From assembly GCF_015752315.1 (NCBI RefSeq), contig NZ_JADOVJ010000001.1, forward strand, positions 2,906,501 to 2,970,500: 64,000 nt of DNA, given 5' to 3'. Position 1 is the first letter of the stretch. Each line of letters starts with the position of its first letter. The position numbers and the translations under genes were made by a program. The notes under the pieces are model-generated. The model made no database searches. It was not told the origin of the DNA and worked only from the letters and a program-made list of their open reading frames with translations. Source of the DNA: Nocardioides luteus (GTDB lineage Bacteria > Actinomycetota > Actinomycetes > Propionibacteriales > Nocardioidaceae). Shown piece after piece: positions 4,427 through 27,078 of this stretch.

Positions 4427-5503
4427 ATGACCGACCACGCGCTCGTCAGCAGCCAATGGCTGCGCGACACCGTCCACGCAGTCTTCGAAGCCGCCGGGCT
4501 CCAGCACGATGCTGCCGGCCGCGTCGCGGACTCGCTCGTCTCAGCGGACCTCCGCGGGGTGCCGTCGCACGGCACGATGCTGGTGCCGATGTACGTCGAG
4601 CGCATCCAGCGAGGTTCTGTTGCCCGACACTCCAGTGCCGGGGTTCTCGTCGATGCCGGGGCGGTCGCCGTCCTGGACGCTCGCGGCGCCCTGGGCCAAG
4701 TGACCAGCGACCAGGCGATGGACCTCGCGGTCGCGAAGTCCCGTCTGCACGGCGTAGGAGCCGTGGTCGTACGCAACGCCTTCCACTTCGGGGGCGCGTT
4801 CCGCTACGTCGAGGCGGCGGCCAAGTCCGGCTGTATCGGGATCGCCGCATCGAACACCCGCCCGCTGATGCCGGCGCCCGGTGGCGCCGCAGCCGTCGTC
4901 GGCAACAACCCGCTGGCCGTCGGCATCCCCGTCCTTGATCGCGAGCCGCTCATCCTCGACATGGCTCTGTCCGAGGCGGCGCTGGGCAAAATCCGCCTCG
5001 CCGCGCAGGAGGGACGGCCGATCCCGGCGACATGGGCCACCGACAGCGAAGGTGCACCGACCACCGACGCAGCGGCGGCGATCGCGGGACTCTTGCTGCC
5101 CGCGGCCGGCCACAAGGGCTACGGTCTCGCACTCGTCATCGACATGCTCACCGGCGTTCTGTCCGGTGGCGGGTTCGGCAACGCCGTCCAGGGCCTCTAC
5201 GCCGACACGTCGGTCCCGAACAACTGCGCCCACTTCTTCCTCGCCCTCGACATCGCACACTTCGGCAACGTGACCGAGTTCCTGACCCGCGCGGCCCAGC
5301 TCGCCGACCAGGTGCTGACGTCACCGACCGCTCCTGGAGTCGAGCGGACACTGCTTCCCGGGCAGCTGGAGGCCGAGCGTCTCGCTGCCTCGACGGCCTC
5401 GGGTGTACGGGTCGACTCCAGCGTTCTTGACGCTCTCGAGGCGACGGCCCGCGATCTCGGTATGACGTGGCGGTCCCCGGTTGCGGCAACGGCCTCGGCC
5501 TGA
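4427..5503 (+). CDS. Ldh family (malate/L-lactate dehydrogenase type) NAD(P)-dependent oxidoreductase
   Basis: The product is 358 residues, normal for the Ldh_2 family, whose members reduce 2-oxo acids or cyclic imines (for example delta1-piperideine-2-carboxylate). Seen: the N-terminal helical start, SADLRGVPSHGTMLVPMY with the catalytic-region His, RNAFHFGGAFRY, GNNPLAVGIP, ALGKIRLA and GHKGYGLALVIDML, all family landmarks. The ATG follows GGAAGGAC. It opens an eight-gene operon and is preceded by a 300-base non-coding leader holding the candidate operator. Its role may be to reduce a ring-cleavage oxo acid or an imine, but the substrate is unknown. The long upstream in-frame extension has no coding character and was left out. 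Confidence 0.8.
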   Translation: MTDHALVSSQWLRDTVHAVFEAAGLQHDAAGRVADSLVSADLRGVPSHGTMLVPMYVERIQRGSVARHSSAGVLVDAGAVAVLDARGALGQVTSDQAMDLAVAKSRLHGVGAVVVRNAFHFGGAFRYVEAAAKSGCIGIAASNTRPLMPAPGGAAAVVGNNPLAVGIPVLDREPLILDMALSEAALGKIRLAAQEGRPIPATWATDSEGAPTTDAAAAIAGLLLPAAGHKGYGLALVIDMLTGVLSGGGFGNAVQGLYADTSVPNNCAHFFLALDIAHFGNVTEFLTRAAQLADQVLTSPTAPGVERTLLPGQLEAERLAASTASGVRVDSSVLDALEATARDLGMTWRSPVAATASA

Positions 5504-5515
5504 TCGGCGTACGAC

Positions 5516-7126
5516 ATGCACAGCACAACGGACGCCGTCATCATCGGCGGCGGGATCAACGCGATGGTTGCCGCGGCGGAGCTCTCGGGTGCCGGCTGGT
5601 CCGTCACCCTGATCGAACGCAATCAGGAGCTGGGCGGCTTCATCGCGTCGGGCGAGCGGACCCTGCCCGGCTATGTCCACGACACGTACTCCTCCTGGCA
5701 CCCCCTCTTCCTCGCTGGTCCCGCCTACGCAAGTCTCGGCGCCGACCTGCATCGTCACGGGCTCGAGTACCGCAACACCGACGGCTACGTGACCGCGAGC
5801 GTCGATGACGACGGCAACGTCGCCATCGCACACCGCGATCCCGAACGGACCGCGGCAGGTTTTGAGCACGCCGCCGATCGAGCCTTCTACCTCGCCTCGC
5901 TGGACCGCTTCGTCGACAACGTCGATCGCGTCGGCAGCCTCCTTGGGACTGAACTGCACTCATGGTCGGCCGTTCGTCAAGGACTCGGCCTTCTCCGCAG
6001 CGTCGGACGTCGGTCCGGCGAGTCCTGGGCACGAGACGTGCTCACCAGCGGCCGGTCATGGTGTCGAAATGGCTTCGCCGGAACCGAGGTCGACCAGCTC
6101 TGGACCCCGTGGCTGCTCCACGCAGGGCTCTCCCCGGACCACGCCTCGGGCGGCTTCATGCTGCCCGTGCTGGCGGCCACGGTGCACGGCTTTGGTCTGC
6201 CGGTCGTCGCCGGCGGCGCCGGCAACTTCGTCGCGGCGTTCCGAGGCCTGCTCGAGGAGCGCGGAGTCCAGATCGTCACGGGCCTCGAGGTCGACTCTGT
6301 GCAGGTGGCACGAAAGCGTGCGGTCGGGGTCTCAGCAGGCCCACACCGCTGGGAGGCCCGGCGGGCCGTGCTCGCTTCCGTGGCACCTCGAACCCTCTAC
6401 CACGACCTGCTCCGTGGCACTGACATGGTGAGCGCAACGACCCGCCTGGATGCGCAGCGCTACCGGGCCGGCCGCGGCGAGATGCAGATCCACGTGGCTC
6501 TTTCCTCGCCTCTTGCATGGAAAGACCAACGCCTGAGCGAGACGCCGCTGATCCACATCTCAGACGGCTCGCGCAGTACCGGGATCGCGTGTGCCGAAGC
6601 CGAGGCCGGGCTGCTCCCGCGTCAGCCCACGGTCGTGGTCGGTCAGCAATATCTGCTCGACCCCTCACGAGTACCGCCCGGTGCGGCCTCACTATGGCTG
6701 CAGCTCCAAGAGGTCCCCTACTCCCCCGCTGGAGACGCCAGCGGGAAGATCGATACCTCAGCGGGCTGGACCCCCGACACCGCGGCCGCGTACGCCGAGC
6801 GGGTCCTCGATCGCATCGAGCAGCACGCACCGGACCTGCGGGCCAAGGTCCTCGCCGTCGACATCGTCACGCCGGTGGATCTGGAGCGATACAACCCGAA
6901 CGCCATCTACGGCGACCCATACGGCGGGTCGGCGGAGCTCGACCAGAACTTCCTCTGGCGCCCACTTCCGTCCGCGGGATCGCACCGGACGCAGGTGCAG
7001 AGCCTGTGGCACATCGGCGCGGCCACCCATCCGGGTCCAGGGCTCGGCGGCGGCTCCGGCCACCTCGTCGCTCAAGAACTCACCACCAGCCGAAACCCCT
7101 TCCGACTCTCCAGGAGCAAGCGATGA
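5516..7126 (+). CDS. FAD-dependent oxidoreductase, phytoene desaturase (CrtI)-like
   Basis: The product is 536 residues. AVIIGGGINAMVAAAELSGA at the N-terminus is the Rossmann FAD site, followed by LIERNQELGGF. The acidic residue at the end of the second strand and the ELGG motif fit the CrtI/amine-oxidase superfamily. The C-terminal GAATHPGPGLGGGSGH matches the second FAD motif of CrtI-like proteins (GxxTHPGxGvpGv). No carotenoid genes are nearby; instead it is embedded in an aromatic-type catabolic operon, so it more likely oxidises or desaturates a pathway intermediate. Its stop overlaps the next start (ATGA). Confidence 0.8.
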   Translation: MHSTTDAVIIGGGINAMVAAAELSGAGWSVTLIERNQELGGFIASGERTLPGYVHDTYSSWHPLFLAGPAYASLGADLHRHGLEYRNTDGYVTASVDDDGNVAIAHRDPERTAAGFEHAADRAFYLASLDRFVDNVDRVGSLLGTELHSWSAVRQGLGLLRSVGRRSGESWARDVLTSGRSWCRNGFAGTEVDQLWTPWLLHAGLSPDHASGGFMLPVLAATVHGFGLPVVAGGAGNFVAAFRGLLEERGVQIVTGLEVDSVQVARKRAVGVSAGPHRWEARRAVLASVAPRTLYHDLLRGTDMVSATTRLDAQRYRAGRGEMQIHVALSSPLAWKDQRLSETPLIHISDGSRSTGIACAEAEAGLLPRQPTVVVGQQYLLDPSRVPPGAASLWLQLQEVPYSPAGDASGKIDTSAGWTPDTAAAYAERVLDRIEQHAPDLRAKVLAVDIVTPVDLERYNPNAIYGDPYGGSAELDQNFLWRPLPSAGSHRTQVQSLWHIGAATHPGPGLGGGSGHLVAQELTTSRNPFRLSRSKR

Positions 7127-7851
7127 AGACCTCATTCGACGCCCACGGCGAGGTGCTCCTCGTCACCGGCGGCGCGCAGGGCATCGGTGCCGCGCTCGCC
7201 CGTGCCTACGCCGAAGCGGGTGGCACCGCCGTCGTCCTCGACGTGGCCGATGCGCCAGAGCTGGCCCAGCACCCGCGCATCGAGTGCCACCGCGTGGACA
7301 TCTCTGATCGCGACGCCGTGTTCGAGACCGTGTCGCGGGCCGTGAACCGACACGGCCGCATCGACGCGCTCGTCGCTGGTGCGGCGATCCAGCCCCGCAG
7401 CAACGTGGCTGACATGGATCCCGACGAGTGGCGTCGCGTCCTGGCCGTCAACCTCGACGGCGTCGTCTGGAGCTGCCAGGCAGTGCTCCCCCATATGCGA
7501 AGCGCGCGCTCCGGAGCGATCGTCGTCTTCGCGTCCGGACTCGCCCTCCATGGACGGGCCCAGGCCTCTGCCTATGCCGCGAGCAAGGGCGCTCTCGTTG
7601 CGTACGCGAAGTCGCTGGCGTCCGAGGTCGCGGAAGACCGCATCCGGGTCAACACCATCTTCCCGGGGGTCATCGACACCGCGCAGTTCCGTGACGCCAA
7701 CCCGGCGGGCGGTGAAAGAGAGCACTGGCAGAAGACGACCGGGATCGGCACCAGCGAGGACGTCGTCGGCCCGTTGCTCTACCTGCTCTCGGACGCCGCG
7801 ACCATGACCGGTTCGACGCTGACGCGCGACCGCGCCTTCTCCAAGGAGTGA
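7123..7851 (+). CDS. Short-chain dehydrogenase/reductase
   Basis: The product is 242 residues of the classical SDR fold: TGGAQGIG (NAD-binding glycine motif, residues about 15-22), a downstream LVAGAA in place of NNAG, catalytic Ser in VVFASG, and SAYAASKGAL giving the YxxxK pair. An Asp after the second strand (VVLDVAD) favours NAD(H). The end, TGSTLTRDRAFSKE, diverges from the usual TG...VDGG tail. ATG lies behind CAGGAG and overlaps the upstream stop. Likely role: alcohol/ketone interconversion on an intermediate of the operon's pathway. Confidence 0.85.
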   Translation: MKTSFDAHGEVLLVTGGAQGIGAALARAYAEAGGTAVVLDVADAPELAQHPRIECHRVDISDRDAVFETVSRAVNRHGRIDALVAGAAIQPRSNVADMDPDEWRRVLAVNLDGVVWSCQAVLPHMRSARSGAIVVFASGLALHGRAQASAYAASKGALVAYAKSLASEVAEDRIRVNTIFPGVIDTAQFRDANPAGGEREHWQKTTGIGTSEDVVGPLLYLLSDAATMTGSTLTRDRAFSKE

Positions 7852-7853
7852 CC

Positions 7854-9461
7854 ATGAGCACCAACACCACCCCCGTATCCGACGAGCTTCCCGTCATCGT
7901 GGTCGGCGCCGGGCCGGTCGGCCTCATCACGGCGCTCGGTCTCGCCCACTACGGCGTGCCGTTCATCGTCCTCGAGGAGGACGACCGGCTCTCGCTCGAC
8001 ACCAAGGCCGGCACCGTCCTGACGCGGACGCTGGAAGTCCTCGATCGCTACGGCGCCCTCGACGACGTCCTCCGTGCATCGCTGCGCGTCGACGAGATCG
8101 GCGAGATCGACCGGGAGACGAACACGTCGACCCTGAGCGTACGGACCGATGACCTCACCGAGGACACGCGGTTCCCCTTCGTGATCAACATCCCGCAGCA
8201 TCACCTCGAACCGGTGCTCAAGCGCGTTCTCGAGGAGAAGGCGCCCGGCGCTCTGCGGATGAGCAGCCGCGTCACCAAGTTCGTCCAGCACCCCGACCAC
8301 GTCGAGGTGCAGGTCGACACACCCGACGGAGAGCAGGTGCTGTCCGGTCGCTACCTGCTCGCCTGCGATGGCGGCCGCTCCCAGATCAGGGAGGCTCTCG
8401 GCATCGTCGTCGAGGGCAAGACCCTGGAGGAGCGATACATGCTGGTCGACCTCAAGGTCGACCTGGACGTGGCCAACCAGCGGGACTACCCCTATCTTGC
8501 GTACTTCGGCGACCCCACCGAGTGGATGATCCTCGTTCGGCAGCCCCACTGCTGGCGCTTCCTCTACCCGCTCCCTCCCGGCACCCCCGAGCCGAGCAGG
8601 GAGGAGCTGCGCGACAAGGCCCTGAGGTTCATCGGTGACGTCAGCGACATCGAGGTCATCGGCACCAACATCTACCCGGTCCACATCCGCGTCGCCGACC
8701 AGTGGCGCGACGGCCGTGTCTTCCTGATGGGAGACGCAGCCCACCTCATCACCCCGATGTGGGCTCTCGGCCTCAACACGGGTGTCCTCGACGCGTCCAA
8801 CCTGCCGTGGCGCCTCGCTTGGGTGCTCCGAGGATGGGCCGACGAGAAGCTCCTGGACGGCTACGAGCGAGAGCAGAGCCCGGTCGCGAGCCAAGGATCC
8901 GGGCAGATGGCCGAGGCCGCGCGGGCCTACATGGACCGCCGGGGCGAGAAGGTCGAGGCGATGTCGGAGGGAAACTGGGGCAACGCCTTCACCCGTGCCA
9001 TGTTGGGCGTCTCGCTCGACGTGGACGACAACGGGGACTGGTCCATGGTCAAGAACGGCAACGCCCCGCTCCCGGTCCGACCCGGCGACCGGGCTCCGGA
9101 CCTCCCCCTCTTCGGCGACGAAGGAACCCTGCACGTCCACGACCTCTGTCGCGACGGCTTCGTGGCCCTGCACTTCACCGACACCCGCCGCCGGCCCGAC
9201 ATCCCCGAGTCCACACCGGCCCTCGAGCACTACGTCATCAGCCGATGGGACGCACCGCTGGACTCCGGAATCCGCGACCGGGCGCTGTTCGACCCCGGAG
9301 ACCGGGTACGCCGCCGGTTCGGAGTCGCGGAGTCGACCGTGGTTCTCCTGCGTCCGGACGCCCACATCGCCGCCATCGTGTCCGGGTCGCCCGATCGCGC
9401 GATCGAGGAGATCTACCGGACCATCACGGGACTCGACGCCGCGGCGAGCGAACGGGCCTGA
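7854..9461 (+). CDS. Class A flavin-dependent aromatic hydroxylase (MhpA/PheA-like)
   Basis: The product is 535 residues. IVVGAGPVGLITALGLAHYG is the FAD Rossmann motif, LLACDGGRSQIREALG the DG motif that also touches NAD(P)H, and GDAAHLITPMWALGLNTG the GD motif. The C-terminal 150 residues (from PVRPGDRAPDLPLF) are the thioredoxin-like tail typical of phenol hydroxylase/MhpA-type enzymes. Such proteins insert one oxygen atom ortho or para to a ring hydroxyl with NAD(P)H. I chose the ATG five bases behind AAGGAG rather than the GTG that overlaps the ribosome site. A likely ring-activating step before cleavage. Confidence 0.88.
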   Translation: MSTNTTPVSDELPVIVVGAGPVGLITALGLAHYGVPFIVLEEDDRLSLDTKAGTVLTRTLEVLDRYGALDDVLRASLRVDEIGEIDRETNTSTLSVRTDDLTEDTRFPFVINIPQHHLEPVLKRVLEEKAPGALRMSSRVTKFVQHPDHVEVQVDTPDGEQVLSGRYLLACDGGRSQIREALGIVVEGKTLEERYMLVDLKVDLDVANQRDYPYLAYFGDPTEWMILVRQPHCWRFLYPLPPGTPEPSREELRDKALRFIGDVSDIEVIGTNIYPVHIRVADQWRDGRVFLMGDAAHLITPMWALGLNTGVLDASNLPWRLAWVLRGWADEKLLDGYEREQSPVASQGSGQMAEAARAYMDRRGEKVEAMSEGNWGNAFTRAMLGVSLDVDDNGDWSMVKNGNAPLPVRPGDRAPDLPLFGDEGTLHVHDLCRDGFVALHFTDTRRRPDIPESTPALEHYVISRWDAPLDSGIRDRALFDPGDRVRRRFGVAESTVVLLRPDAHIAAIVSGSPDRAIEEIYRTITGLDAAASERA

Positions 9462-9532
9462 GGTCACGAGCCGTCCGCATCGCGCGCGTTCGGCTCCCAT
9501 CAAGCACGTACACAAAAGAAGGAGGTCGCTTC

Positions 9533-10225
9533 ATGAAGGGCGACATCGTCTACTCGCCGGAGGGCGAGAAGATCGAACTGGTCGACATCGGGATCACCGT
9601 GCTCGTCGACAATCCGGTGGTCCGGGTCTGGGACGTGACCCTCGAGGGACACGCCCAACATCCCTGGCACCTGCACCACAACCCGTACGTCGTCCTCAGC
9701 CTCCAGGGCTCGGACGGACGTATGGACTGGCTCGACGGCAGCCCCGAGCGATTCATCTCCGAGTACCGAGGCGGAGCCGTCTACCGGCCGACCTCCCCGG
9801 TCCACAGGCTCACCAACCTGCGCGACAACACCTACCAGAACCGGCTCGTGGAGCTGAAGGACCTCGGCGAGCTGCTTCCCGAGCCGCTCGACATCGGTGA
9901 AGGTGCCCGCAGCGTCGAAGGCGAGGCCGCGGGCCCCGATCTCACTGACGGTCGCCGCCCCGTCCTCGACCACCCGCACGTCAAGGTCTGGACCGTGGAC
10001 GTCCAGGGCAACCAGAGCGTGGACCTGCAGCTCGCCGAGCTCCCCCACGTGCTCGCCCTGGTCGATGCACCCGACCCTGCGCAGGAGTCCACCGGCGGCG
10101 TCGTCTACCACGACGGCGGACAGCTGGATCTTGCCAACAGCTCGGCAGACGTTCAGACCTGGTTCGTCGTCGAGCTCACCTATCTGGCCGACCTCGACGC
10201 AGTCCTGAACGGAGACCGTGCATGA
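9533..10225 (+). CDS. Cupin-domain protein (bicupin-like, 230 aa)
   Basis: The N-terminal half has a cupin motif 1, HPWHLHHNPYVVLSLQG, with HxHH but with hydrophobic residues where the metal-binding Glu normally stands, and motif 2 around PTSPVHRLTNL with one His. The C-terminal half (from HPHVKVWTVDVQGNQ) looks like a second cupin repeat that has lost its ligands. A strong GAAGGAGG ribosome site precedes the ATG. It could be a ring-cleavage dioxygenase subunit, an isomerase or a structural partner of the cupin encoded next. The two reading frames overlap at ATGA, which supports coupled synthesis. Confidence 0.75.
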   Translation: MKGDIVYSPEGEKIELVDIGITVLVDNPVVRVWDVTLEGHAQHPWHLHHNPYVVLSLQGSDGRMDWLDGSPERFISEYRGGAVYRPTSPVHRLTNLRDNTYQNRLVELKDLGELLPEPLDIGEGARSVEGEAAGPDLTDGRRPVLDHPHVKVWTVDVQGNQSVDLQLAELPHVLALVDAPDPAQESTGGVVYHDGGQLDLANSSADVQTWFVVELTYLADLDAVLNGDRA

Positions 10226-10737
10226 CAACGATCCCCCGCCCCGCCGACATCTCGCCCGAGGAGTGGGAGAACAACCTCTCCGAACCGGCCCGCTACTCCG
10301 GCGCTGCGCCCGACATCTCCCGGGAGGTGGAGGTCGAGGTCGACGGTGAAGACCCGATGGCCCGCTTCCGGGAGATCCTGATCCAGACGAACGACCTCGA
10401 CTGGGTCGACAAGACTCTCGCCGGCCTCACCCACAAGGCACTGTGGCGCAACGACGACACCGGCGCCTCGATCTCGCTCGTGAAGTTCGAGAAGGGCATC
10501 GGAATCCCCTCGCGGCACTCGCACGCCTCGAACCAGTTCATGTTCTGCCTCTCCGGCCGATACACCTACCTGCCGACGGGGATCACGCTGACCCCGGGTT
10601 CCTTCTACTGGAACCCGAAGGGGAGCCTCCACGGCCCGACGCTGGCGGAGGAGGAGTCCGTCCTGCTCGAGGTGTACGACGGCCCGCACTACCCCACTCA
10701 GCCGGACTGGTACTCCGACCCGGCCGACGCCCACTGA
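10222..10737 (+). CDS. Cupin protein, candidate ring-cleaving or C-C-cleaving dioxygenase
   Basis: The 171-residue product has a ChrR/dihydroxyacetophenone-dioxygenase-like cupin: PSRHSHASNQFMFCLSGRY supplies HxH in motif 1, and GSFYWNPKGSLHGP the motif 2 His. Size and layout resemble the 177-residue 2,4'-dihydroxyacetophenone dioxygenase encoded near the end of this window, though the sequences are clearly different. Small single-cupin iron dioxygenases cleave hydroxyketones and catechol-like rings. Its place between a flavin hydroxylase and an FAH-family hydrolase makes an oxygen-dependent cleavage step the natural guess. No experiment is implied by the sequence. Confidence 0.75.
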   Translation: MTTIPRPADISPEEWENNLSEPARYSGAAPDISREVEVEVDGEDPMARFREILIQTNDLDWVDKTLAGLTHKALWRNDDTGASISLVKFEKGIGIPSRHSHASNQFMFCLSGRYTYLPTGITLTPGSFYWNPKGSLHGPTLAEEESVLLEVYDGPHYPTQPDWYSDPADAH

Positions 10738-10767
10738 CCTGATCGACCAGTACGAAGGAAACACACC

Positions 10768-11175
10768 ATGAGCAAGACGAACGTCGTGTCCCCGGCCCTC
10801 GCCACCCCCAACGGGCACTTCTCCCAGGCATCCACGATCGAGGCCAGCGGGAAGCTGGTCTTCGTGTCTGGCATGACCGCCCGCAACAACGAAGGCGGCA
10901 TCACGGGCATCGGCAACATCACCGAGCAGACCCACCAGGTGTGCCAGAACCTCAAGGCGGCGGTCGAGGCCGCCGGTGGGACCCTCGACGACATCTGCCG
11001 CGTCGACGTGTACGTACGGAACATGGAGGACTTCCAGGCCATTCACGAGGTGCGCCGCCAGTACTTCACCGGCGAACCGCCGGCCTCCACGATGGTCGAG
11101 GTCTCCAAGTTCGTGTCCAAGGACTACCTCATCGAGATCAACGCCATCGCGGTCGTCCAGGAGCAGGCGTCATGA
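10768..11175 (+). CDS. RidA/YjgF/UK114 family enamine deaminase
   Basis: The 135-residue product contains the trimeric RidA fold landmarks: FSQASTIEASGKLVFVSGMT, TEQTHQVCQNLKAAVEAAGG and the catalytic-region PPASTMVEVSKFV. The Arg-containing RidA signature (xCxRxxxE-like) is replaced here by VEVSKF/IEINAIAV, so the protein belongs to an Rid subfamily outside the archetypal RidA. RidA-like proteins hydrolyse enamines/imines, and one branch (2-aminomuconate deaminase) releases ammonia in aromatic degradation. Inside this operon such a deaminase would suggest a nitrogen-containing substrate. GAAGGAAAC precedes the ATG, and the stop overlaps the next start. Confidence 0.85.
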   Translation: MSKTNVVSPALATPNGHFSQASTIEASGKLVFVSGMTARNNEGGITGIGNITEQTHQVCQNLKAAVEAAGGTLDDICRVDVYVRNMEDFQAIHEVRRQYFTGEPPASTMVEVSKFVSKDYLIEINAIAVVQEQAS

Positions 11176-12056: not shown

Positions 12057-12064
12057 GCCGTCAT

Positions 12065-12102: not shown

Positions 12103-12129
12103 CATTCTGCTCCGTCGAACGGACCGGGA

Positions 12130-13098: not shown

Positions 13099-13133
13099 AG
13101 GTCTCGGCGGCCGGAAATGTGATCTACGCAATA

Positions 13134-13169
13134 TGGATACCACCAGCGTCCCACGGATAGCGACCCCCC
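13134..13169 (+). promoter_or_regulatory. Two-part repeat, candidate AraC operator of operon 2
   Basis: TGGATAC (13134-13140) and GGATAGCGACCCCCC (13155-13169) stand 20 bases apart, start to start, the same spacing as in the element before operon 1. The site is in the 134-base divergent region between the AraC gene and the SDR gene, about 64 bases before the SDR start, a usual place for an activator site just upstream of -35. Confidence 0.5.
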
Positions 13170-13232
13170 GACTACCCACCTAGCGTTCTTGACGTCAGAT
13201 CCACCTCCCCACCAACAACCGGAGGACACTCA

Positions 13233-14021: not shown

Positions 14022-14066
14022 CCACACCACGGCACCCCCAAGATCTCATCAACCCAGGAGCAACAG

Positions 14067-15287: not shown

Positions 15288-15309
15288 GCAACCGACCCGA
15301 GGAGAGACC

Positions 15310-17028
15310 ATGCGTCGAATCGCCATCGTCGGCGCCGGCCAAGCAGGGACCCAGCTGGCTCTGGGACTGCTCGAGCACGGATACGACGTCACGCTCGTCA
15401 CCGACCGCACCGCGGACGACATCCGCAACGGCCAAGTGATGTCCAGCCAGTGCATGTTCGAGACCGCACTCCAAGCCGAGCGCATGCTGGGGCTCAACAT
15501 GTGGGAGCGCGAGTGCCCGAGCGTCGAGGCCATCGCCTTCACGCTGGCAGACGAGAAGGGAGCCGAGTACGGCTGGGAGGCCCCGCTCGATGGAGCAGCC
15601 CAGTCGGTCGACCAGCGTGTGAAGGTGTCGGCATGGCTCGAGCTGTTCTCCGATCGGGGCGGCAAGCTCGTGCACCGATCGGCGAGCAGCCGAGACCTGG
15701 AGGAGTACAGCCGCAGTCACGATCTTGTGATCGTGTCCACCGGCAAGGGCGACCTGGGCCGGCTGTTCGCTCGCGACGCCGAACGCTCGCCGTTCGACCA
15801 GCCGCAACGAGTGCTGGCGCTCACCTATGTGACCGGAATGGCCCCACGCCCCGAGGGTTCTGCGGTCTCCTTCCACGCCGTTCCGGGTGTCGGGGAGTAC
15901 TTCACGTTCCCGGCGCTCACGACGACCGGTGCCTGCGACATCATGGTCTTCGAGGGCGTTCCCGGCGGGCCGATGGACCGCTGGGAGGACGTTCGCAGTC
16001 CCGACCAGCACCTTGCCCGTTCGCTGGAGCTTCTCGAGGAGTTCTTCCCGTGGGAGGCCGAACGGTGTCGCGACGTGCAGCTCACCGACGACAACGGGGT
16101 CCTGCGCGGCCGGCTCACGCCGACCGTCCGTAAGCCGGTCGCCACCCTCCCCTCGGGAGCCACGATCCTCGGCCTCGGCGACGCGGTCGTCCTGAACGAC
16201 CCGATCACCGGCCAGGGATCCAACAACGCGGCGAAGGCCGCCAACTACTACCTCGACAGCATCCTCGGCCGCGGCGACGAGCCGTTCACACCGGAGTGGA
16301 TGCAGCACACCTTCGAGACGTACTGGCGCGGCTGGCTGCAGTGGGTCGTCGCGTGGACCAACTCGATGTTGGGCTCCGCCCCTGATCACGTACGCAGCAT
16401 CCTTGCCGAGTCGAGCGAGCTGCCCGGGCTGGCCGCGACGGTGGCCAACGGCTTCGACGATCCGCGGGTCTACTTCCCGTGGTGGTTCGACGCCGAGGCG
16501 GCCGAACGCTTCATTGCAGAGAAGCGAGCTCAGGCCGCTGCGGCGTTCGACCCACGTGAGCTGCGCCAGGCGTTCGGCCAGTTCGCCACCGGCGTGACGG
16601 TGGTGACCAGCCGCAGCGAGGACGGCCACCGCGTCGGCATGACCGCCAACTCGTTCACCTCGGTCTCGATGGACCCTCCGCTGGTGCTGTGGTGCCCGAA
16701 CAAGAACGCCCCGAGCCTGGACGACTTCATGCTCGGCACCCACTTCGCCATCAACGTGCTGGCCGCCGATCAGCACCATCTCTCCCGCCAGTTCGCGACA
16801 CCGGCGGCGGACAAGTTCGCCGATGTCGCCTGCCGCGACGGCCTCGCCGGGGTGCCGGTGCTCGACGGAGCGGTGGCGACCTTCGAGTGCCGCACGGTCT
16901 CGACGTACGACGCGGGCGACCACGTGATCATGCTCGGCGAGATCGAGCGCTTCGACGCGCCAGGAGGCGAGCCGCTGGTCTTCCACTCCGGCTTCTACCA
17001 CCTGGCCACCAACCATCCCGACTTCTGA
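15310..17028 (+). CDS. styA2B: StyA2B-like self-sufficient monooxygenase-flavin reductase fusion
   Basis: The 572-residue product is a fusion. Residues 1 to about 402 repeat the StyA fold (RIAIVGAGQAGTQLALGLLE; VMSSQCMFETAL; LNDPITGQGSNNAAK). After an Ala-rich linker (EKRAQAAAA), residues about 413-572 are a flavin reductase of the StyB/HpaC type: FGQFATGVTVVTS, RVGMTANSFTSVSMDPPLVL and the end FHSGFYHLATNHPDF. One chain can therefore reduce FAD with NAD(P)H and use it for oxygenation. The StyA part is closely similar to the upstream StyA1, so the tandem arose by duplication before or after fusion. GAGGAGAG before ATG; 22-base gap to the upstream gene. Confidence 0.9.
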   Translation: MRRIAIVGAGQAGTQLALGLLEHGYDVTLVTDRTADDIRNGQVMSSQCMFETALQAERMLGLNMWERECPSVEAIAFTLADEKGAEYGWEAPLDGAAQSVDQRVKVSAWLELFSDRGGKLVHRSASSRDLEEYSRSHDLVIVSTGKGDLGRLFARDAERSPFDQPQRVLALTYVTGMAPRPEGSAVSFHAVPGVGEYFTFPALTTTGACDIMVFEGVPGGPMDRWEDVRSPDQHLARSLELLEEFFPWEAERCRDVQLTDDNGVLRGRLTPTVRKPVATLPSGATILGLGDAVVLNDPITGQGSNNAAKAANYYLDSILGRGDEPFTPEWMQHTFETYWRGWLQWVVAWTNSMLGSAPDHVRSILAESSELPGLAATVANGFDDPRVYFPWWFDAEAAERFIAEKRAQAAAAFDPRELRQAFGQFATGVTVVTSRSEDGHRVGMTANSFTSVSMDPPLVLWCPNKNAPSLDDFMLGTHFAINVLAADQHHLSRQFATPAADKFADVACRDGLAGVPVLDGAVATFECRTVSTYDAGDHVIMLGEIERFDAPGGEPLVFHSGFYHLATNHPDF

Positions 17029-17053
17029 CCCAGCAGCGAGTGAGGTTCCCTCC

Positions 17054-17923
17054 ATGATCATTCCCCCCTTGCGCTACCTGCGGCCCACCTCTCTCGAGCA
17101 GGCCACGAACTGGCTGACGCATCTTGACGGCGCCACCGTCCTGGCCGGCGGGCAAACGCTCGTGAACGCGCTCAAGCTCGACCTCGTCGCCCCGGACTTC
17201 CTGATCGACGTCCACCGGCTCGAGGAGCTCTCCGGCATCGAGGTGGCGACCGATGGCACCGTGTCCATCGGCGCGGCGACGACGTACGCAGCGATCGCCG
17301 CGGACCCTGGAGTCCAGGCGAACGCGCCCGCCGTCGCCACGATGGCTGCCGGGCTCGTCGACCGGCAGGTCCGCAATCGCGGCACCATCGGCGGAAACGT
17401 CTGCCTCAACGACCCGACGAACAACTACCCGCCGCTGCTGCTTGCTCTCGGGGCACGCTTCCACGTCGCCGGGCCCGACGGCATTCGGGTCATCGAGGCG
17501 TCAGACTTCTTCGTCGGCACCCTCGCGACCGCCCTCGGCACCGGGGAGATCCTCGTACGCATCGAGGTGCCCCACCTGCCCGAAGAAGCGCGAGTCGTCC
17601 ACCGACACCTGCAGCTCGCCAAGGACTCGTGGGCCGTCGCCCGATGTGTCGTGCGGCTCGATGTCCACGACGGCGTCGTTGCCGGCGCCACCGTGGCGCT
17701 CGGCACCGTTCTCGGGTCGCCCGTCCGCCTGGCGGCCGTCGAGGCCGCGCTCGTCGGCCAGCCCCTGGACGTACGGCTCATCGACCTCGCCTCCGCCTCC
17801 TTCGACAACGAGACGTTCGAGGCAGCGAGCGACGTGCACTGCTCGGCCGACTACCGGCGGCGCATGGCCAAAGTCCAGCTCCACCGCGCACTGACCGACC
17901 TTGTGAACGGAGACCACGCATGA
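17054..17923 (+). CDS. Molybdenum hydroxylase FAD-binding (medium) subunit, CoxM-like
   Basis: The 289-residue product carries the two FAD signatures of medium subunits of the xanthine oxidase family: VLAGGQTLV (residues about 34-42) and NRGTIGGNVCLND (about 112-124), then the CO_deh_flav_C domain. In the complex it passes electrons from the iron-sulfur clusters to FAD and the final acceptor. It begins the M-S-L gene order; its stop overlaps the small-subunit start (ATGA). The start context MIIPPLRYLRPTSLEQA is the usual beginning of the family. Confidence 0.92.
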   Translation: MIIPPLRYLRPTSLEQATNWLTHLDGATVLAGGQTLVNALKLDLVAPDFLIDVHRLEELSGIEVATDGTVSIGAATTYAAIAADPGVQANAPAVATMAAGLVDRQVRNRGTIGGNVCLNDPTNNYPPLLLALGARFHVAGPDGIRVIEASDFFVGTLATALGTGEILVRIEVPHLPEEARVVHRHLQLAKDSWAVARCVVRLDVHDGVVAGATVALGTVLGSPVRLAAVEAALVGQPLDVRLIDLASASFDNETFEAASDVHCSADYRRRMAKVQLHRALTDLVNGDHA

Positions 17924-18498
17924 CCGCCACACCGGCACCGGATGAACTCGCCCTCCCGGACCTGTCGGCCCCCGACGTACACGCGATCGCCGTGACCGTC
18001 GATGGTCGCGAGGTCCAGGGACAGGTCTCCTCTCGCAAGCTGCTGGTGCACTGGCTGCGCGACGAGCTCGACCTGCGTGGGCCGAAGATCGGTTGCGACA
18101 CCGGAAACTGTGGAGCGTGCACCGTTCGCTGGGACGGGCGGATCGCGAAGTCCTGCATGATCCTGGCCGCGCAGACCGACGGCACCACGGTGGAGACCGC
18201 TGCCTCGCTCGCCGAGCCCGACGGCTCGCTCAACAACCTTCAGCAGTGCTTCAAGTCCCATCACGGCCTCCAGTGCGGCTACTGCACGTCCGGGATGCTC
18301 ATGACCGCGACCGACCTGCTCGAGTCAGGCGAGGAGATCTCCGAGCAGTCCGTACGCCGGGCGTTGAAGGGCAACATCTGCCGGTGCACCGGCTACGAGA
18401 ACATCGTGCGCGCGATCCGCGCCGCCGCCGGCCAGGACGTGCCCAAGCCACACGGATCCCCCACGCACACCGACGACGGAGCGGAGGACGCGTTGTGA
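17920..18498 (+). CDS. Molybdenum hydroxylase [2Fe-2S] (small) subunit, CoxS-like
   Basis: The 192-residue product has both clusters: the plant-ferredoxin-type set C59, C64, C67, C79 in IGCDTGNCGACTV...KSC, and the molybdopterin-proximal set C119, C122, C154, C156 in LQCGYCTSGM...ICRCTGY. It is somewhat longer than a minimal CoxS because of about 20 extra N-terminal and C-terminal residues. It shuttles electrons from the molybdenum centre to the FAD subunit. Start and stop both overlap neighbouring genes by four bases, so the three subunits are translationally coupled. Confidence 0.93.
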   Translation: MTATPAPDELALPDLSAPDVHAIAVTVDGREVQGQVSSRKLLVHWLRDELDLRGPKIGCDTGNCGACTVRWDGRIAKSCMILAAQTDGTTVETAASLAEPDGSLNNLQQCFKSHHGLQCGYCTSGMLMTATDLLESGEEISEQSVRRALKGNICRCTGYENIVRAIRAAAGQDVPKPHGSPTHTDDGAEDAL

Positions 18499-20939
18499 CG
18501 ACCCAGCAGGAGACACGCAGCTCGGTCTGGACGGGCAAGACCGTCCAGCGCAAAGAGGACGACCGGCTGCTCAAGGCCCAGGGCGAGTTCGGCGACGACA
18601 CCCCGATCGCACACCTCGGCTACGTCGTGTTCGTACGCTCCCCGTACGCGCACGCCCTCATCAAGAACATCGACATCTCCGCAGCCGAGACCGTCCCCGG
18701 CTACCTGGGCAGCCTCCTGCCCGACGAGGTCGATGCCCTGACCGACGGCTTCATGGAGATCCAGGGGCCTCCGGCCGACGCCGAGATCGACAAGTGCCTC
18801 GCCGTCGGCGGAAAGGTCCGCTTCGTCGGCGAGCCCGTCGTCGCAGTCGCCGGCGCCTCCCGTGAGGCGGCTCGCGACGCAGCCGCAGCGGTGGTCGTCG
18901 ACTACGAACCCATGGAGGTCGTGCTCGACGCCCGCGCGGCGGTCGAGTCGGAGGCCCCGCTCGTTCATGACCAGATCGGCAGCAACGTCGCCTGGGACGG
19001 TACCTACGACTGGGGCGACATCGATGACGCCCTGAGCACGGCCGACCACGTCATCGAGGTCGACGAGCTCCATTTCCACCGCTTCTCGTCGACGCCGCTC
19101 GAGTGTTCGGTCGTGACCGCGTCATATGACGCGGGCACAGATACGTTCACCCTCATCGGCGGGTGCGCGATGCCACAGATCACCACGCTCAACCTCGCCG
19201 TGGCCATGCGTCACCCGGCCGAGAAGATCCGCATCATCAGCAAGGACTTCGGCGGATCGTTCGGACTCAAGATCGGCATCTACGTCCCGGCCACGGCCGT
19301 CGCCCTCCTGGCCCGCAAGCTCGGCCGGCCGATGCGGTGGACCGAGACGCGGACCGAGCACCACTGGATGGGCGGCCACGGCAACGAGCGCTGGTTCCAG
19401 AACGTGAAGATGGCGATCCAGAAGGACGGCACGGTGCTGGGGCTGACCTACGACGCGCTCGACGACGTAGGCGCCTACACCCGCTACGAGCCGCTCGGGG
19501 CGGTCATCTGGACCCAGGTCGCCAACGCCTGCTACCAGCTGCAGCATCTGAAGGTCCACTACCGCACCGTGTACTCCAACAAGGGACCGGTCCACCCCAA
19601 CCGCGGCTACTCGCGACTACAGCACATGTGGCTGGTCGAGCGGATGATGGACATCGCCGCGCACCGTCTCGGGTTCGACCCGGTCGAGTTCCGGCTGAAG
19701 AACTACGTCCAACCCGACCAGTACCCCTACACGACCGTCAACGGCTGCGTGTACGACTCGGGTGACCTGCCCCTCTCTCTGCGCAAGGCCCTAGACCTCA
19801 TCGACTACGAGGACGCCCGCCGTCTGCAGCGCGAGGCTGCCGGTTCCGGGAAGCGGATCGGCATCGGCATCGGGTCGACCCTGGACTCCGGCACGAACAA
19901 TTTCGGCCAGGCCCGGCTGGTCAACCAGTTCCTCCCGTTCAGCGGCAACACCGAGGGCGGACTGGTGCGGATGGGCGTGGACGGGAGCGTCTACGCCATC
20001 ACCGGCGGCGTCGCCTTCGGCCAGGGCCACGAGACCACCGTCGCCCAGGTCGTCGCCGACATGCTGGGACTGACTCCCGACGACATCATCACCCACCGCG
20101 GTGGTGACTCATCGCTGTCGGCGCAGACCGGATTCTCCGGGTCCTATGCCTCCCAGTTCGCCGTCACGGGCATCGGGGCGATCCTGAACGCGACGAAGAA
20201 GCTCGTGCGTGAGATCCAGCTGGTCGCCGGGGCAACTCTGGGTGCGGAGCCCGACGAGATCATCCTCGAGGGCGGGTTCGCGCGCGTCGTCGGCGACCCG
20301 GACCGCGCACTTCCCTTCGCAGCGGTCGCGGGGATCGTGCACTTCTCCCCCGGCGACCTGCCACCGGAGATCGCCGAGCAGGTCGGCCTGGTCGGTCGTG
20401 CTGTCTACCGGGCGCCGTTCGAGATCCCCGACGTCGAGAACAAGTACGGCAACCTGACCCTGACGTACGCCTCGCAAATCCACGCCTGTGTGCTCGAGAT
20501 CGACGAGGAGACCGGCGAGACGCAGATCCTGCGCTATGCGATGGTCGATGACTGCGGTACCCCGATCAACCCGATGATCATCGAGGGTCAGGTCCACGGG
20601 GCCACCGTCCATGGCATCTCCGGCGCACTGTTCGAGCACTTCGCCTACGACCCCGACGGGCAGCTGACAGCCGCGAACTTCTACGACTATCACGCTGCCA
20701 CGGCACTCGACATGCCATCACTGCGGTACGACAGCGTCGTGTCCCCCTCCCCGTTCACGCCCATCGGCGCCAAGGGCATGGGCGAGGGTGGCGGTGCTCC
20801 GCTGCACGCCATCTCGGCTGCCGTCCAGGACGCGATCGGCAGCGAGGGCGGCATCGTCCGCAACTCCTACAACCCGCCGGAGGCAGTGCTCGACCTGCTG
20901 CACGCCGGCAACGACACGAAGGTGAGGGTCCTCCGATGA
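18495..20939 (+). CDS. Molybdenum hydroxylase catalytic (large) subunit, CoxL-like
   Basis: The 814-residue product begins at GTG overlapping the CoxS stop. Seen: KTVQRKEDDRLLKAQGEFGDD at the start, DFGGSFGLKIGIY for molybdopterin binding, GGVAFGQGHETTVAQ (the Gln facing molybdenum), and IGAKGMGEGGGAPL with the catalytic Glu near residue 764. The CO-dehydrogenase active-site loop AYRCSFR is absent (here HPNRGYSRLQH), so it is an aldehyde/N-heteroaromatic hydroxylase rather than a true CO dehydrogenase. Such enzymes put water-derived oxygen on an electron-poor ring carbon next to nitrogen or on an aldehyde. Confidence 0.92.
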   Translation: MTTQQETRSSVWTGKTVQRKEDDRLLKAQGEFGDDTPIAHLGYVVFVRSPYAHALIKNIDISAAETVPGYLGSLLPDEVDALTDGFMEIQGPPADAEIDKCLAVGGKVRFVGEPVVAVAGASREAARDAAAAVVVDYEPMEVVLDARAAVESEAPLVHDQIGSNVAWDGTYDWGDIDDALSTADHVIEVDELHFHRFSSTPLECSVVTASYDAGTDTFTLIGGCAMPQITTLNLAVAMRHPAEKIRIISKDFGGSFGLKIGIYVPATAVALLARKLGRPMRWTETRTEHHWMGGHGNERWFQNVKMAIQKDGTVLGLTYDALDDVGAYTRYEPLGAVIWTQVANACYQLQHLKVHYRTVYSNKGPVHPNRGYSRLQHMWLVERMMDIAAHRLGFDPVEFRLKNYVQPDQYPYTTVNGCVYDSGDLPLSLRKALDLIDYEDARRLQREAAGSGKRIGIGIGSTLDSGTNNFGQARLVNQFLPFSGNTEGGLVRMGVDGSVYAITGGVAFGQGHETTVAQVVADMLGLTPDDIITHRGGDSSLSAQTGFSGSYASQFAVTGIGAILNATKKLVREIQLVAGATLGAEPDEIILEGGFARVVGDPDRALPFAAVAGIVHFSPGDLPPEIAEQVGLVGRAVYRAPFEIPDVENKYGNLTLTYASQIHACVLEIDEETGETQILRYAMVDDCGTPINPMIIEGQVHGATVHGISGALFEHFAYDPDGQLTAANFYDYHAATALDMPSLRYDSVVSPSPFTPIGAKGMGEGGGAPLHAISAAVQDAIGSEGGIVRNSYNPPEAVLDLLHAGNDTKVRVLR

Positions 20940-21361
20940 TCCAGGTCGCTGGACGTTTCACGACGTCCGTAGGCGCAGATGAGCTGCGCGCTCGCCACAC
21001 CCAGGTGGACCAGCTCTCCGCCGTCGAGACGCTGAGCGATGTCGGGGTCGCCGAAGACGGCACCGTCCGTGCCCGATTCACCCCGAGGCTGCCGCTGGGC
21101 CAGATCCCGCTCGACACCCAGATCACGACGACCCACACCGACGAGAGCCGGAGCCTCGTCACCGTGCACGCCTCGCGGGGACCGCACAGCATGGACGCCA
21201 CGCTGGCGATCGCCTTGAACAGCGTCGACGCCGGGACCGAGGTCGCTTGGGCGGGCGAGCTCAGGCTCCGCGGCACCGCCGCAAGCGTGGGCCAGCGCGT
21301 CGGCGCGGACGTCGCGCAGCGCGTCATCAACGACGTCCTCGTCCAGCTCGCACGTCCCTGA
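20936..21361 (+). CDS. CoxG-like SRPBCC-domain protein
   Basis: The 141-residue product is a START/SRPBCC-fold protein of the CoxG family (starts MIQVAGRFTTSVGADELRA, ends VGADVAQRVINDVLVQLARP). CoxG genes accompany molybdenum hydroxylases and in the CO dehydrogenase system help anchor the enzyme at the membrane or quinone pool. This copy lacks the hydrophobic C-terminal anchor of many CoxG proteins. ATG overlaps the CoxL stop, which ties it to the hydroxylase. Confidence 0.82.
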   Translation: MIQVAGRFTTSVGADELRARHTQVDQLSAVETLSDVGVAEDGTVRARFTPRLPLGQIPLDTQITTTHTDESRSLVTVHASRGPHSMDATLAIALNSVDAGTEVAWAGELRLRGTAASVGQRVGADVAQRVINDVLVQLARP

Positions 21362-21371
21362 GGAAGAAGCC

Positions 21372-22349
21372 ATGACTCGTACTGACATCCACGTCCACGT
21401 CGCTCCGGCCCTCGACAGCAAGACCGCGGCAACGCTCAGCGGAGCATCCGTCGACTCCGACGGCCGCATCCAGATCGACGGCCGCCAGGTCGGACCCGCG
21501 AAGCTGTACGACGTGCCTGCACTGGAGGCCTACCTCGCCGCGGCAGGGCTCGACCACGCCATCGTCTCGTTGCCGCCGCCGTTCTACCGACAGCAACTGT
21601 CGGTCGACGAGGCCCGAGCCTGGGTCCGTGCGGTCAACGACGGGATCCTGGCGCGCATCGGCGAGCACCCGGCCCTGACCGCGCTCGTCTACCTGCCTCT
21701 GGAGCACCCGGAGCTTGCCGTCGAGGAGTACCAGCGGACCCGCAGCCAGAAGCGCTTCGTCGGCGCCACGGCTGCAGCGGGAGGTCGTTCCGCCCTGGGA
21801 ACCGATCCGCGACTCGTGCCGTTGTGGGAAGCCCTGGACGCGGACGGGGCAGCCCTGCTCCTCCACCCGGGAACCTCGCCCGACCACCGCCTCGACGACT
21901 TCTACCTCTCCAACCTGTTGGGGAACCCCAGCGAGACGACCGTCAGCGTCGCGCATCTCGCGCTGGGTGGAGTGCTTCAGCGCTACCCCGACATGCAGGT
22001 CGTCCTCGTCCACTGCGGCGGCACCCTGCCCGCGATCGTGGGTAGGTGGGAACGCGGCGCCGAGACCCATCGACCGGGCCTCGAGGACCTGGCGGAGTCG
22101 CCGCGCGAGTCGATCCGCAGGCTCTACGTCGACTGCCTCGCGCACGACCCAGCGGTGGTCGACCTGGCGGTGGGCATCTTCGGCGAGGAGCACATCCTGC
22201 TCGGCAGCGACTGGCCCTTCCCCATGGGGACCGACGACCCGATCGCGCTCATCCAGCACCTTGACGGGGAGTTCGTCGAACGAGTCGCCACCGACAACCC
22301 CGCGAAGGTGTTCCCGGCCATCAAGAGCACCCTCTCGCGGGCCGGCTGA
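21372..22349 (+). CDS. ACMSD-like amidohydrolase_2 family protein, possible decarboxylase
   Basis: The 325-residue TIM-barrel product has DIHVHV at the start (metal ligands H7, H9), HPG with H165, VHCGGTLP with H214, and GSDWPFPMG with D280. This is the metal-site set of the aminocarboxymuconate-semialdehyde decarboxylase group, which removes carboxyl groups from aromatic acids or hydrolyses C-C/C-N bonds. It lies between CoxG and XdhC in the operon. Decarboxylation of a hydroxylated (hetero)aromatic acid would fit, as in the picolinate route where a member of this family decarboxylates a dihydroxypicolinate. Hydrolysis is the alternative. AGGAAGAAGCC precedes the ATG. Confidence 0.82.
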   Translation: MTRTDIHVHVAPALDSKTAATLSGASVDSDGRIQIDGRQVGPAKLYDVPALEAYLAAAGLDHAIVSLPPPFYRQQLSVDEARAWVRAVNDGILARIGEHPALTALVYLPLEHPELAVEEYQRTRSQKRFVGATAAAGGRSALGTDPRLVPLWEALDADGAALLLHPGTSPDHRLDDFYLSNLLGNPSETTVSVAHLALGGVLQRYPDMQVVLVHCGGTLPAIVGRWERGAETHRPGLEDLAESPRESIRRLYVDCLAHDPAVVDLAVGIFGEEHILLGSDWPFPMGTDDPIALIQHLDGEFVERVATDNPAKVFPAIKSTLSRAG

Positions 22350-22363
22350 CAGGAGCACCGGCA

Positions 22364-23542
22364 GTGGACGACATCCTCGAGACCCTGGTCGAGCACTGGG
22401 AGGCGAACACACCCGTCGCGCTCGCGACCGTGGTGTCGACGTTCAAGTCGGCGCCGCGGGTTCCGGGCGCCTCCCTGCTCGTCACCCCCGGCGGGGAGGT
22501 CACCGGATCGGTCTCGGGAGGCTGTGTCGAGGGGGCGGTCTATGAACTCGCCACACAGGTGTTGAGCGACGGGACGCCGCAGCTGGTGCGATACGGCTTC
22601 AGCGACGCTGATGCGTTCGAGATCGGCCTGACCTGTGGCGGAATCGTCGACATCTTCGTTCAGCGGATCGACCGCGACACCGCCCCGTGGGTCGGCGAGC
22701 TCGCTGCAGCTGTTCGGGACGGACGAGAGGTGGCCGTGGCGACCGTCATCGAACACCCCGTCTCAGGCACACTGGCTCGGGCCGTACTGCTCGGCGGCGA
22801 CGATGCGGCGACCCTCGGTCACCTCGGCGATGAGCGGCTGGACCGAGTCGTCCTCGACGACGCGCGTGGTGTTCTACGGACCGGCCGAAGCGGAACGCTC
22901 AGCTACGGAACCGACATCCGGAGGCAGGGCGAAGGCATCCGGGTCTTCGTGTGGTCGTTCGCACCTCCACCACGGCTCATCGTCTTCGGGGCCATCGACT
23001 TCGCCGCCGCCCTTGCCGAGGTGGGATCGTTCTTGGGCTACCGGGTGACGGTCTGTGACGCGCGACCGATCTTTGCGACGAACGCCCGGTTCCCGAAGGC
23101 TGACGAGGTCGTCGTCGAATGGCCCCATCGCTACCTGCGCCGTGAAGCAGAGGAACATCGCGTCGACGCCCGCACCGCCATCTGCGTGTTGACGCACGAC
23201 GCGAAGTTCGACGTCCCCGTTCTCGAGGTGGCCCTGAGGCTGCCATCAGTCGGCTATGTCGGTGCCATGGGATCGCGTACGACCCATGCCGACCGACTGT
23301 CACGGCTGGTCGAGGTCGGCATTTCGAACGACCTCCTCGACCAACTCCACAGCCCCATCGGCCTGGACATCGGCGCCAACACACCGCATGAGACGGCCCT
23401 CAGCATCGCTGCGGAGATTCTGGCGACGCGGTCTAGGGCTACCGGCATGCCGCTGCGTACGCTCGGCGGACCCATTCATGGCCGCACCGCACTTCTAGCG
23501 GGGACCGCACACGCAGAACAACGTGAATCGCCCCGGGTCTGA
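22364..23542 (+). CDS. xdhC: XdhC-family molybdenum cofactor insertion protein
   Basis: The 392-residue product has the N-terminal XdhC/CoxI domain (APRVPGASLLVTPGGEVTGS, SGGCVEGAVYE, and LTCGG with conserved cysteines) and the C-terminal Rossmann half (VGYVGAMGSRTTHADRL). XdhC proteins bind the molybdenum cofactor, help its sulfuration and load it into xanthine oxidase-family enzymes. GTG start behind CAGGAG. Its presence as the last gene supports that the upstream hydroxylase is a functional molybdoenzyme. Cofactor synthesis genes are not in the window. Confidence 0.88.
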   Translation: MDDILETLVEHWEANTPVALATVVSTFKSAPRVPGASLLVTPGGEVTGSVSGGCVEGAVYELATQVLSDGTPQLVRYGFSDADAFEIGLTCGGIVDIFVQRIDRDTAPWVGELAAAVRDGREVAVATVIEHPVSGTLARAVLLGGDDAATLGHLGDERLDRVVLDDARGVLRTGRSGTLSYGTDIRRQGEGIRVFVWSFAPPPRLIVFGAIDFAAALAEVGSFLGYRVTVCDARPIFATNARFPKADEVVVEWPHRYLRREAEEHRVDARTAICVLTHDAKFDVPVLEVALRLPSVGYVGAMGSRTTHADRLSRLVEVGISNDLLDQLHSPIGLDIGANTPHETALSIAAEILATRSRATGMPLRTLGGPIHGRTALLAGTAHAEQRESPRV

Positions 23543-27055: not shown

Positions 27056-27078
27056 GTCGGTTTCCTCTCTCGTGACCG

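Follow-up and report, generated by a model that had tools for sequence, protein, structure and literature searches.

We analysed a gene island at positions 4427 to 23542 of a stretch of 64,000 nucleotides (hereafter the window) from the 5.82 Mb chromosome of Nocardioides luteus. As judged by open frames and family matches, the island contains 17 enzyme or accessory genes and one gene for an AraC-family regulator. These 18 genes form two operons on the forward strand, operon 1 (4427-12056, eight genes) and operon 2 (13233-23542, nine genes), in which neighbouring genes overlap or are separated by at most 71 bp. The regulator gene (12130-13179; PF14525 and PF12833, with a match to the NCBIfam model AndR under its cut-off) lies between them on the opposite strand; its true start is probably further inside this frame. 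We read the island as one regulon built of two modules: module I, which consists of SDR2, StyA1, StyA2B and a CrtI-like flavoprotein, and module M, to which all the other enzyme and accessory genes belong.

Operon 1 starts with an Ldh2-family dehydrogenase/reductase (4427-5503; PF02615, E 3e-111), which is followed by the CrtI-like flavoprotein (5516-7126; NCBIfam CrtO/CrtI types under their cut-offs), the dehydrogenase SDR1 (7123-7851; PF00106/PF13561) and a class A FAD aromatic hydroxylase (7854-9461; PF01494, E 1e-66; PDB matches including PnpA and RebC). Next come two cupins, cupA (9533-10225) and the ChrR/DAD-like cupB (10222-10737; PF12973, with a weak match to 2,4'-dihydroxyacetophenone dioxygenase, E 0.0016), a RidA-family protein (10768-11175; PF01042) and a FAH-family hydrolase (11172-12056; PF01557, E 3e-65; PDB matches including diketo-deoxyrhamnonate hydrolase and maleylpyruvate hydrolase). 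Operon 2 opens with the dehydrogenase SDR2 (13233-14021), which stands in the position of IifB, is 60% identical to the SDR of the Acinetobacter locus L076 and scores above the cut-off of NF006121. StyA1 (14067-15287; PF17885) and StyA2B, an oxygenase-flavin reductase fusion (15310-17028; PF17885 and PF01613), precede the three subunits of a molybdenum hydroxylase, namely a CoxM-like FAD subunit (17054-17923; PF00941), a CoxS-like 2Fe-2S subunit (17920-18498; PF01799) and a CoxL-like molybdenum subunit (18495-20939; PF02738 and PF20256). A CoxG-like gene (20936-21361; PF06240), an Amidohydro_2/ACMSD-like protein (21372-22349; PF04909; PDB ACMSD, E 1.2e-30) and the maturation factor XdhC (22364-23542; PF13478 and PF02625) complete the operon. 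The genes named in the original prediction were all recovered as open frames, and all except cupA, which had no Pfam match, gave a family match. The family calls were in general correct, the match of CoxG being weak (E 9e-6) and that of the CrtI-like protein remaining under every curated cut-off.

The closest PDB chains of StyA1 were 7z4x, 7z97 and 7zca (E 1.9e-183 to 1.7e-181), while the styrene monooxygenase 3ihm matched far more weakly (E 3.7e-44). We take 7z4x to be the indole monooxygenase of Variovorax (its PDB molecule name does not state so). Within the family, a Smoa_sbd domain was found, and the partner StyA2B carries the fused flavin reductase. According to the available part of PMC13101512, group E enzymes acting on indole share the fingerprint S46-Q48-M50-V/I73-I76-A96, and those acting on styrene N46-V48-H50-Y73-H76-S96. 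Both StyA1 and StyA2B have S45, Q47, M49, V72 and I75, which corresponds to five of the six indole positions with a constant offset of -1 (the sixth lies past an indel), and StyA1 has none of the five corresponding styrene-type residues. The surroundings also resemble an iif operon, with an SDR beside the oxygenase and an AraC regulator. For the homologous iif genes, the accessible portion of PMC12538310 describes the conversion of indole to a dihydrodiol by the oxygenase and its further conversion by the SDR and IifA to anthranilate. As far as its sequences tell, module I is an indole-type set. The cofactor-free oxygenase IifA had no match in the window.

When GTDB contigs were searched with StyA1, 172 relatives were obtained, from which 80 loci were kept. 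As some of these loci are cut by contig ends, absences may be artefacts. An AraC match was present at 75 of the 80 loci and an SDR2 homologue of at least 45% identity at 66. The claim that StyA2B is rarely found beside a molybdenum hydroxylase was borne out: CoxL occurred at two loci only, those of Nocardioides immobilis (L010) and Streptomyces cavernae (L011), in both cases with the operon 1 set (Ldh2, class A hydroxylase, cupA, cupB and RidA). The N. immobilis locus contains all 18 genes in the order of the window. In S. cavernae the 18 genes are rearranged: operon 1 is turned round, and XdhC, for which there is a partial match at the end of the locus, comes after FAH. The occurrence of all 18 genes in these two genomes therefore indicates more than a chance neighbourhood. 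The CrtI gene occupies an identical slot inside operon 1 in the three loci, which favours a single joining event for them. A second StyA1 homologue (45%) is present elsewhere in the N. luteus genome (G000:C1:733759-734985).

IifA was found at 21 and the CrtI-like protein at 24 of the 80 StyA1 loci, never at the same one (hypergeometric p 1.3e-4); on the StyA1 tree, the CrtI trait changes 10 times. In the Paenarthrobacter locus L015, the genes are arranged in the order SDR2, StyA1, StyA2B, CrtI, a PF04199 protein and a thiamine pyrophosphate (TPP) enzyme, and the PF04199 protein is by similarity an isatin hydrolase (PDB 5nmp, E 3.7e-77). Homologues of this hydrolase were present at 14 of the 24 CrtI loci versus 1 of the 56 others (0 of the 21 IifA loci; p 1.7e-8, kinship ignored). 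In a second sample of 394 genomes of the class, CrtI homologues of at least 40% identity were found in 14 genomes, including our own (44 genomes at E 1e-60 if weaker homologues are counted), and isatin hydrolase in 57. It was present in 12 of the 14 CrtI genomes, the misses being N. luteus itself and G446, versus 45 of the 380 others (p 2e-9, again ignoring kinship; 6 of the 13 other CrtI genomes belong to one family). Of the 13 stretches fetched (11-20 kb), 10 had the hydrolase gene close to CrtI, the exceptions being L147, L152 and L153. None of the 10 stretches linking the two genes contained a StyA1 match; in L142, an FMO-like oxygenase gene stands between SDR2 and CrtI. This association with isatin hydrolase, across loci and across genomes, is the reason why we regard the CrtI-like flavoprotein as probably the isatin-forming enzyme. 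Its position among the operon 1 genes had been predicted correctly, while its affiliation is with the indole side.

Some of the clusters with CrtI and isatin hydrolase, L143, L145 and L108/L150 (genomes G411, G364 and G214, respectively), also contained PRK08255-type proteins, recognised by the model in L143 (above its cut-off) and L150 (G214, just below it) and by the domain make-up in L145. Genes resembling indolepyruvate oxidoreductase were present in L143 and L108. The PRK08255 type presumably covers 2-aminobenzoyl-CoA monooxygenase/reductase, and the composition of these clusters suggests a route from isatinate to 2-aminobenzoyl-CoA.

The distribution of module M was followed with cupB. 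In the 394 genomes of the class, it gave 32 matches at E 0.001, of which only those in G214, G240 and G249, besides our own, were close (70-72%). In 391 genomes of the order, there were 42 matches at E 1e-20: our own, G553, G720, G622 and 38 genomes of one genus (g3; 7.4-9.7 Mb), in three of which the other M genes were checked. In G622 (cupB 57%), the only similar neighbours were RidA-like (42%) and FAH-like (31%), and it was not counted as module M. The recurring set consists of Ldh2, SDR1, class A hydroxylase, cupA, cupB, RidA, FAH and Amidohydro_2, though not every copy is complete: SDR1, the hydroxylase and cupA are missing from G249, Amidohydro_2 is missing from the first copy in G463, and the three other g3 copies examined gave no match to cupA. 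Mesorhizobium has the set divided between two places, with SDR1 unmatched. In G720, the set forms one operon with CoxM, CoxS, CoxL (74%), CoxG and XdhC, and neither StyA nor SDR2 nor CrtI was found in the 39 kb fetched around it. This composition is why the molybdenum hydroxylase was assigned to module M. The original prediction had rightly placed it in one operon with StyA2B, but its partner genes are the operon 1 enzymes.

Homologues of CrtI were found near M genes on the Agrobacterium plasmid pQ15_94_2, on the Mesorhizobium plasmid pML2037 and in G214, where module M is followed by the PRK08255-type protein and isatin hydrolase. In a tree of CrtI proteins, one of the copies from Mesorhizobium clusters with L022, L027 and L048, which are from StyA1 loci, and the S. 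cavernae copy with that of Embleya L013, a locus with isatin hydrolase and without module M (both 100/100, with a warning of the program about long branches). Because of these groupings, CrtI and module M appear to be associated in more than one lineage. Isatin hydrolase was present in three of the four class genomes with module M, our own being the miss (p 0.01). We found no relevant paper on this combination of genes in a literature mostly excluding subscription papers.

The assignment of cupA as a cupin is based on a His triad (H46/H48/H91) that was invariant in eight aligned rows, and on a homologue in Agrobacterium whose annotation reads AraC-type ligand-binding domain. The triad of cupB (H99/H101/H137) was invariant in 14 rows, and H7, H9, H165, H214 and D280 of the Amidohydro_2 protein, which we take to be its metal site, in 13 rows. 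These residues would fit as metal sites in the three proteins. The loops AYxCSFR and AYxGAGR, which we assume to be the active-site loops of form I and form II CO dehydrogenases, are both missing from CoxL, and we dropped an aerobic CO dehydrogenase for this reason. The classical route through 3-hydroxyanthranilate and ACMSD was also abandoned, because the semialdehyde dehydrogenase that would be the partner of ACMSD is absent from the 18 genes (the nearest aldehyde dehydrogenase is about 10 kb on, 33815-35347), because RidA lacks the arginine seen in RidA structures, and because cupB-like cupins stand beside extradiol VOC genes on plasmids (Streptomyces and Gemmobacter), so that cupB need not be the ring-cleaving enzyme. 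In the loci concerned (L112, L113 and L114), the cupin is accompanied by RidA, FAH and VOC genes and by a RraA-type gene (L113) or one annotated as dimethylmenaquinone methyltransferase (L112 and L114); these clusters perhaps represent another undescribed aromatic pathway. A gentisate-like route via 5-hydroxyanthranilate was considered and has only circumstantial support: beside module M, G214 contains a bicupin resembling gentisate/5-aminosalicylate dioxygenase, a nitrilase-type protein (both under the cut-offs) and an Amdase-type gene. N. luteus itself has a Rieske protein scoring 429 bits (cut-off for anthranilate dioxygenase, 671.9) and a protein scoring 256 bits (cut-off for gentisate dioxygenase, 442.1), which leaves room for other anthranilate routes in this organism.

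The promoters of operons 1 and 2 were compared automatically, with 60 shuffles, and a direct repeat of GGAT was then picked by eye in the aligned stretches. In S. cavernae, the similarity between the two promoters exceeded that of all shuffles (0/60). The pattern, GGATA-N15-GGATRGC, occurs in the window only at 4244-4270 and 13135-13161 (forward strand; with up to one mismatch; 0.23 expected by chance, and 1 of 100 shuffles reaches two), starting 183 nt before Ldh2 and 98 nt before SDR2, respectively. The genome contains three exact matches, the third one at 650497, and a backward control gave none. A relaxed version was present at 0.20 per kb upstream of SDR2 or StyA1 versus 0.0099 per kb elsewhere (31 matches; 0 and 3 for the backward control). 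In relaxed form, the box is also found upstream of both operons in N. immobilis and S. cavernae, and it precedes IifA at 4 of 21 loci. With still looser patterns, a box was seen ahead of the M operons of AraC type (G720 and G463), and none ahead of those of GntR type (G553 and G240). Two further relaxed box-like repeats lie on the minus strand of the window at 31356 and 32791.

The gene content, its conservation and linkage, and the repeat were observed directly, and it is from them that we infer the reactions and the AraC binding proposed here. We consider, with a probability of roughly 58%, that the island encodes a single catabolic pathway under AraC control, made by the joining of two modules, with indole or a closely related derivative of it as substrate. 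That these genes are one catabolic set, perhaps with an indole-like substrate, had been predicted, and is supported by the fingerprint of StyA1 and by the linkage of the set in the window, N. immobilis and S. cavernae. From homology and linkage, StyA1/StyA2B would epoxidise the 2,3-bond of indole, SDR2 would convert the resulting diol to 3-hydroxyindolin-2-one (dioxindole) and the CrtI-like flavoprotein would act as dioxindole-to-isatin oxidoreductase. As no isatin hydrolase was matched in the window genome, module M presumably takes over from isatin; it would do so in place of the usual route with isatin hydrolase, opening the aminoaryl ring derived from isatin and breaking it down to products of the pyruvate type. 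A possible working order is the opening of isatin to the level of isatinate or anthranilate by Amidohydro_2 and the molybdenum enzymes, then hydroxylation of the ring, its cleavage by a cupin and cleavage by FAH. Each of these steps and their order are conjectural, the chemistry from isatin to the ring-cleaved product being the weakest part. Both operons would be induced together through the putative binding of AraC to the direct-repeat box. A more specific proposal, to which we give somewhat less than even odds, is that module M constitutes a complete lower pathway, so far undescribed, from isatin (or isatinate or anthranilate) to central metabolites. Such a pathway would rely on a molybdenum hydroxylase and two 3-His cupins and would need neither isatin hydrolase nor anthranilate dioxygenase nor CoA activation, and the CrtI-like protein would be the enzyme, missing so far, that forms isatin in aerobic indole catabolism.

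Several results weigh against the indole pathway. On the StyA1 tree, the mutual exclusion of IifA and CrtI was not significant (p 0.5), and of seven independent pairs, 4.2 showed CrtI and isatin hydrolase changing in the same way and 0.1 in the opposite way, an underpowered comparison (p ~0.125). Isatin hydrolase, with a query that matched 57 of the 394 genomes, had no match in the N. luteus genome, and the TPP enzyme had only matches of 24-30% there. The available parts of two papers propose a spontaneous formation of isatin in Providencia (PMC9871250) or cite the view that it is a dead end (PMC6221969); in either case an isatin-forming enzyme would be needless. Module M genes occur without module I in stretches from G720, G553, G240 and three g3 genomes, so that M may have another natural substrate. 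In all of the 14 copies of module M that were examined, the RidA protein reads PAS at the site where the RidA proteins compared from the PDB read PAR (PAC in four RidA-like proteins that are more distant). This arginine presumably has a role in imine deamination, and its absence makes the predicted enamine deamination by RidA doubtful. As to regulation, the promoter similarity was marginal in the window (2/60 shuffles reach the score) and not above that of shuffles in N. immobilis (14/60). The box precedes operon 1 in S. cavernae, but in N. immobilis only with a further relaxed half-site, and only 8 of the 80 loci have the relaxed box in the 250 nt that precede SDR2 or StyA1. The pattern was derived from these same promoters, so that the counts there are no independent test; the rarity of the box in the genome is the stronger argument.

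A less likely alternative is that module M starts from an N-heteroaromatic acid and is fed by module I from a non-indole compound. Picolinate breakdown combines hydroxylation by a molybdenum enzyme, flavin-dependent hydroxylation and decarboxylation by an Amidohydro_2 protein, and G720 has a molybdenum hydroxylase, a class A hydroxylase and Amidohydro_2 in a single operon. Several molybdenum hydroxylases are found near the M genes of Mesorhizobium, and NMT1/THI5-type transporter genes beside module M in G240, G249 (weak), G553 and G038. This is countered by the indole type of module I, by the way CrtI tracks isatin hydrolase and by G214, where module M is accompanied by isatin hydrolase and a gene of the PRK08255 type.

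We judge it less probable still that two unrelated pathways, an indole detoxification operon and an aromatic-acid operon, are mere neighbours. The original prediction had named separation of the operons in other genomes, combined with a lack of co-induction, as a result that would refute it, and such separation was partly observed: G720 has the operon 1 genes and the molybdenum hydroxylase without StyA, SDR2 and CrtI, operon 1 genes lacking the molybdenum hydroxylase are found in others, several stretches have M without module I, and 78 of the 80 StyA1 loci show no M. Against this, the StyA set is linked to the CoxL set in the window and in two other genomes, both of which have kept the 18 genes together, one of them with operon 1 inverted and XdhC moved there, CrtI lies inside operon 1 with its partners in operon 2, and a similar box precedes both operons. 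A styrene or aryl-sulfide pathway, with StyA1/StyA2B as styrene epoxidase, would agree with the name of the family and with a related Variovorax pair, for which the available part of PMC6017014 gives epoxidation of styrene and the name aryl alkyl sulfoxidase. It was set aside as very improbable on the indole-type fingerprint of StyA1, and the SDR and AraC neighbours are like those of indole operons.

Operon 2 is abutted by a second aromatic cluster on the minus strand (23818-29744), which comprises a fumarylacetoacetase (above its NCBIfam cut-off), a protein that matched no family, one resembling homogentisate dioxygenase (with a weak match in Pfam), a further class A hydroxylase and a protein of the metallo-beta-lactamase fold; the first three were matched at none of the 80 StyA1 loci. 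Further on (30693-37120) are genes for a TetR regulator, MoaF, a second AraC regulator, an aldehyde dehydrogenase and an amino-acid permease.

A review of the field (PMC6221969) lists as open the question of whether aerobic indole breakdown truly passes through isatin and which genes form and consume it. The association of the CrtI-like protein with indole oxygenases and isatin hydrolase turns this question into one that a single enzyme can test. We found nothing on a CrtI-type enzyme with isatin or indole in the literature searched, which mostly left subscription papers outside its scope. Module M is a recurring operon, of which the cupB marker alone is present in 38 genomes of one genus. The joining of the two modules under one regulator probably gives a new route of indole degradation through isatin.

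The island shares its group E oxygenase, SDR and AraC regulator with the iif and dho-ipo indole operons of Acinetobacter, Burkholderia and Pseudomonas savastanoi, as these are presented in the available parts of PMC12538310 and PMC6221969. It differs from them by the lack of an IifA match, with the CrtI-like protein instead, and by the absence of anthranilate dioxygenase and catechol genes among the 18. The E2-type StyA1/StyA2B pairs of Rhodococcus opacus 1CP and Variovorax paradoxus EPS (PMC6017014, in part) represent the same two-gene oxygenase with fused flavin reductase, to which the island adds the molybdenum hydroxylase and the rest of module M. The route with isatin hydrolase (PDB 5nmp and 4j0n) has the CrtI-like enzyme in common with the island in other genomes, but the window genome has no match for the hydrolase. 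The iad locus for auxin degradation, as far as described in the accessible parts of PMC12633357 and PMC10374108, follows a similar logic of oxygenase, dehydrogenase and amidase toward anthranilate, but it uses a Rieske oxygenase and CoA steps and is controlled by MarR, features that are absent from the 18 genes of the island.

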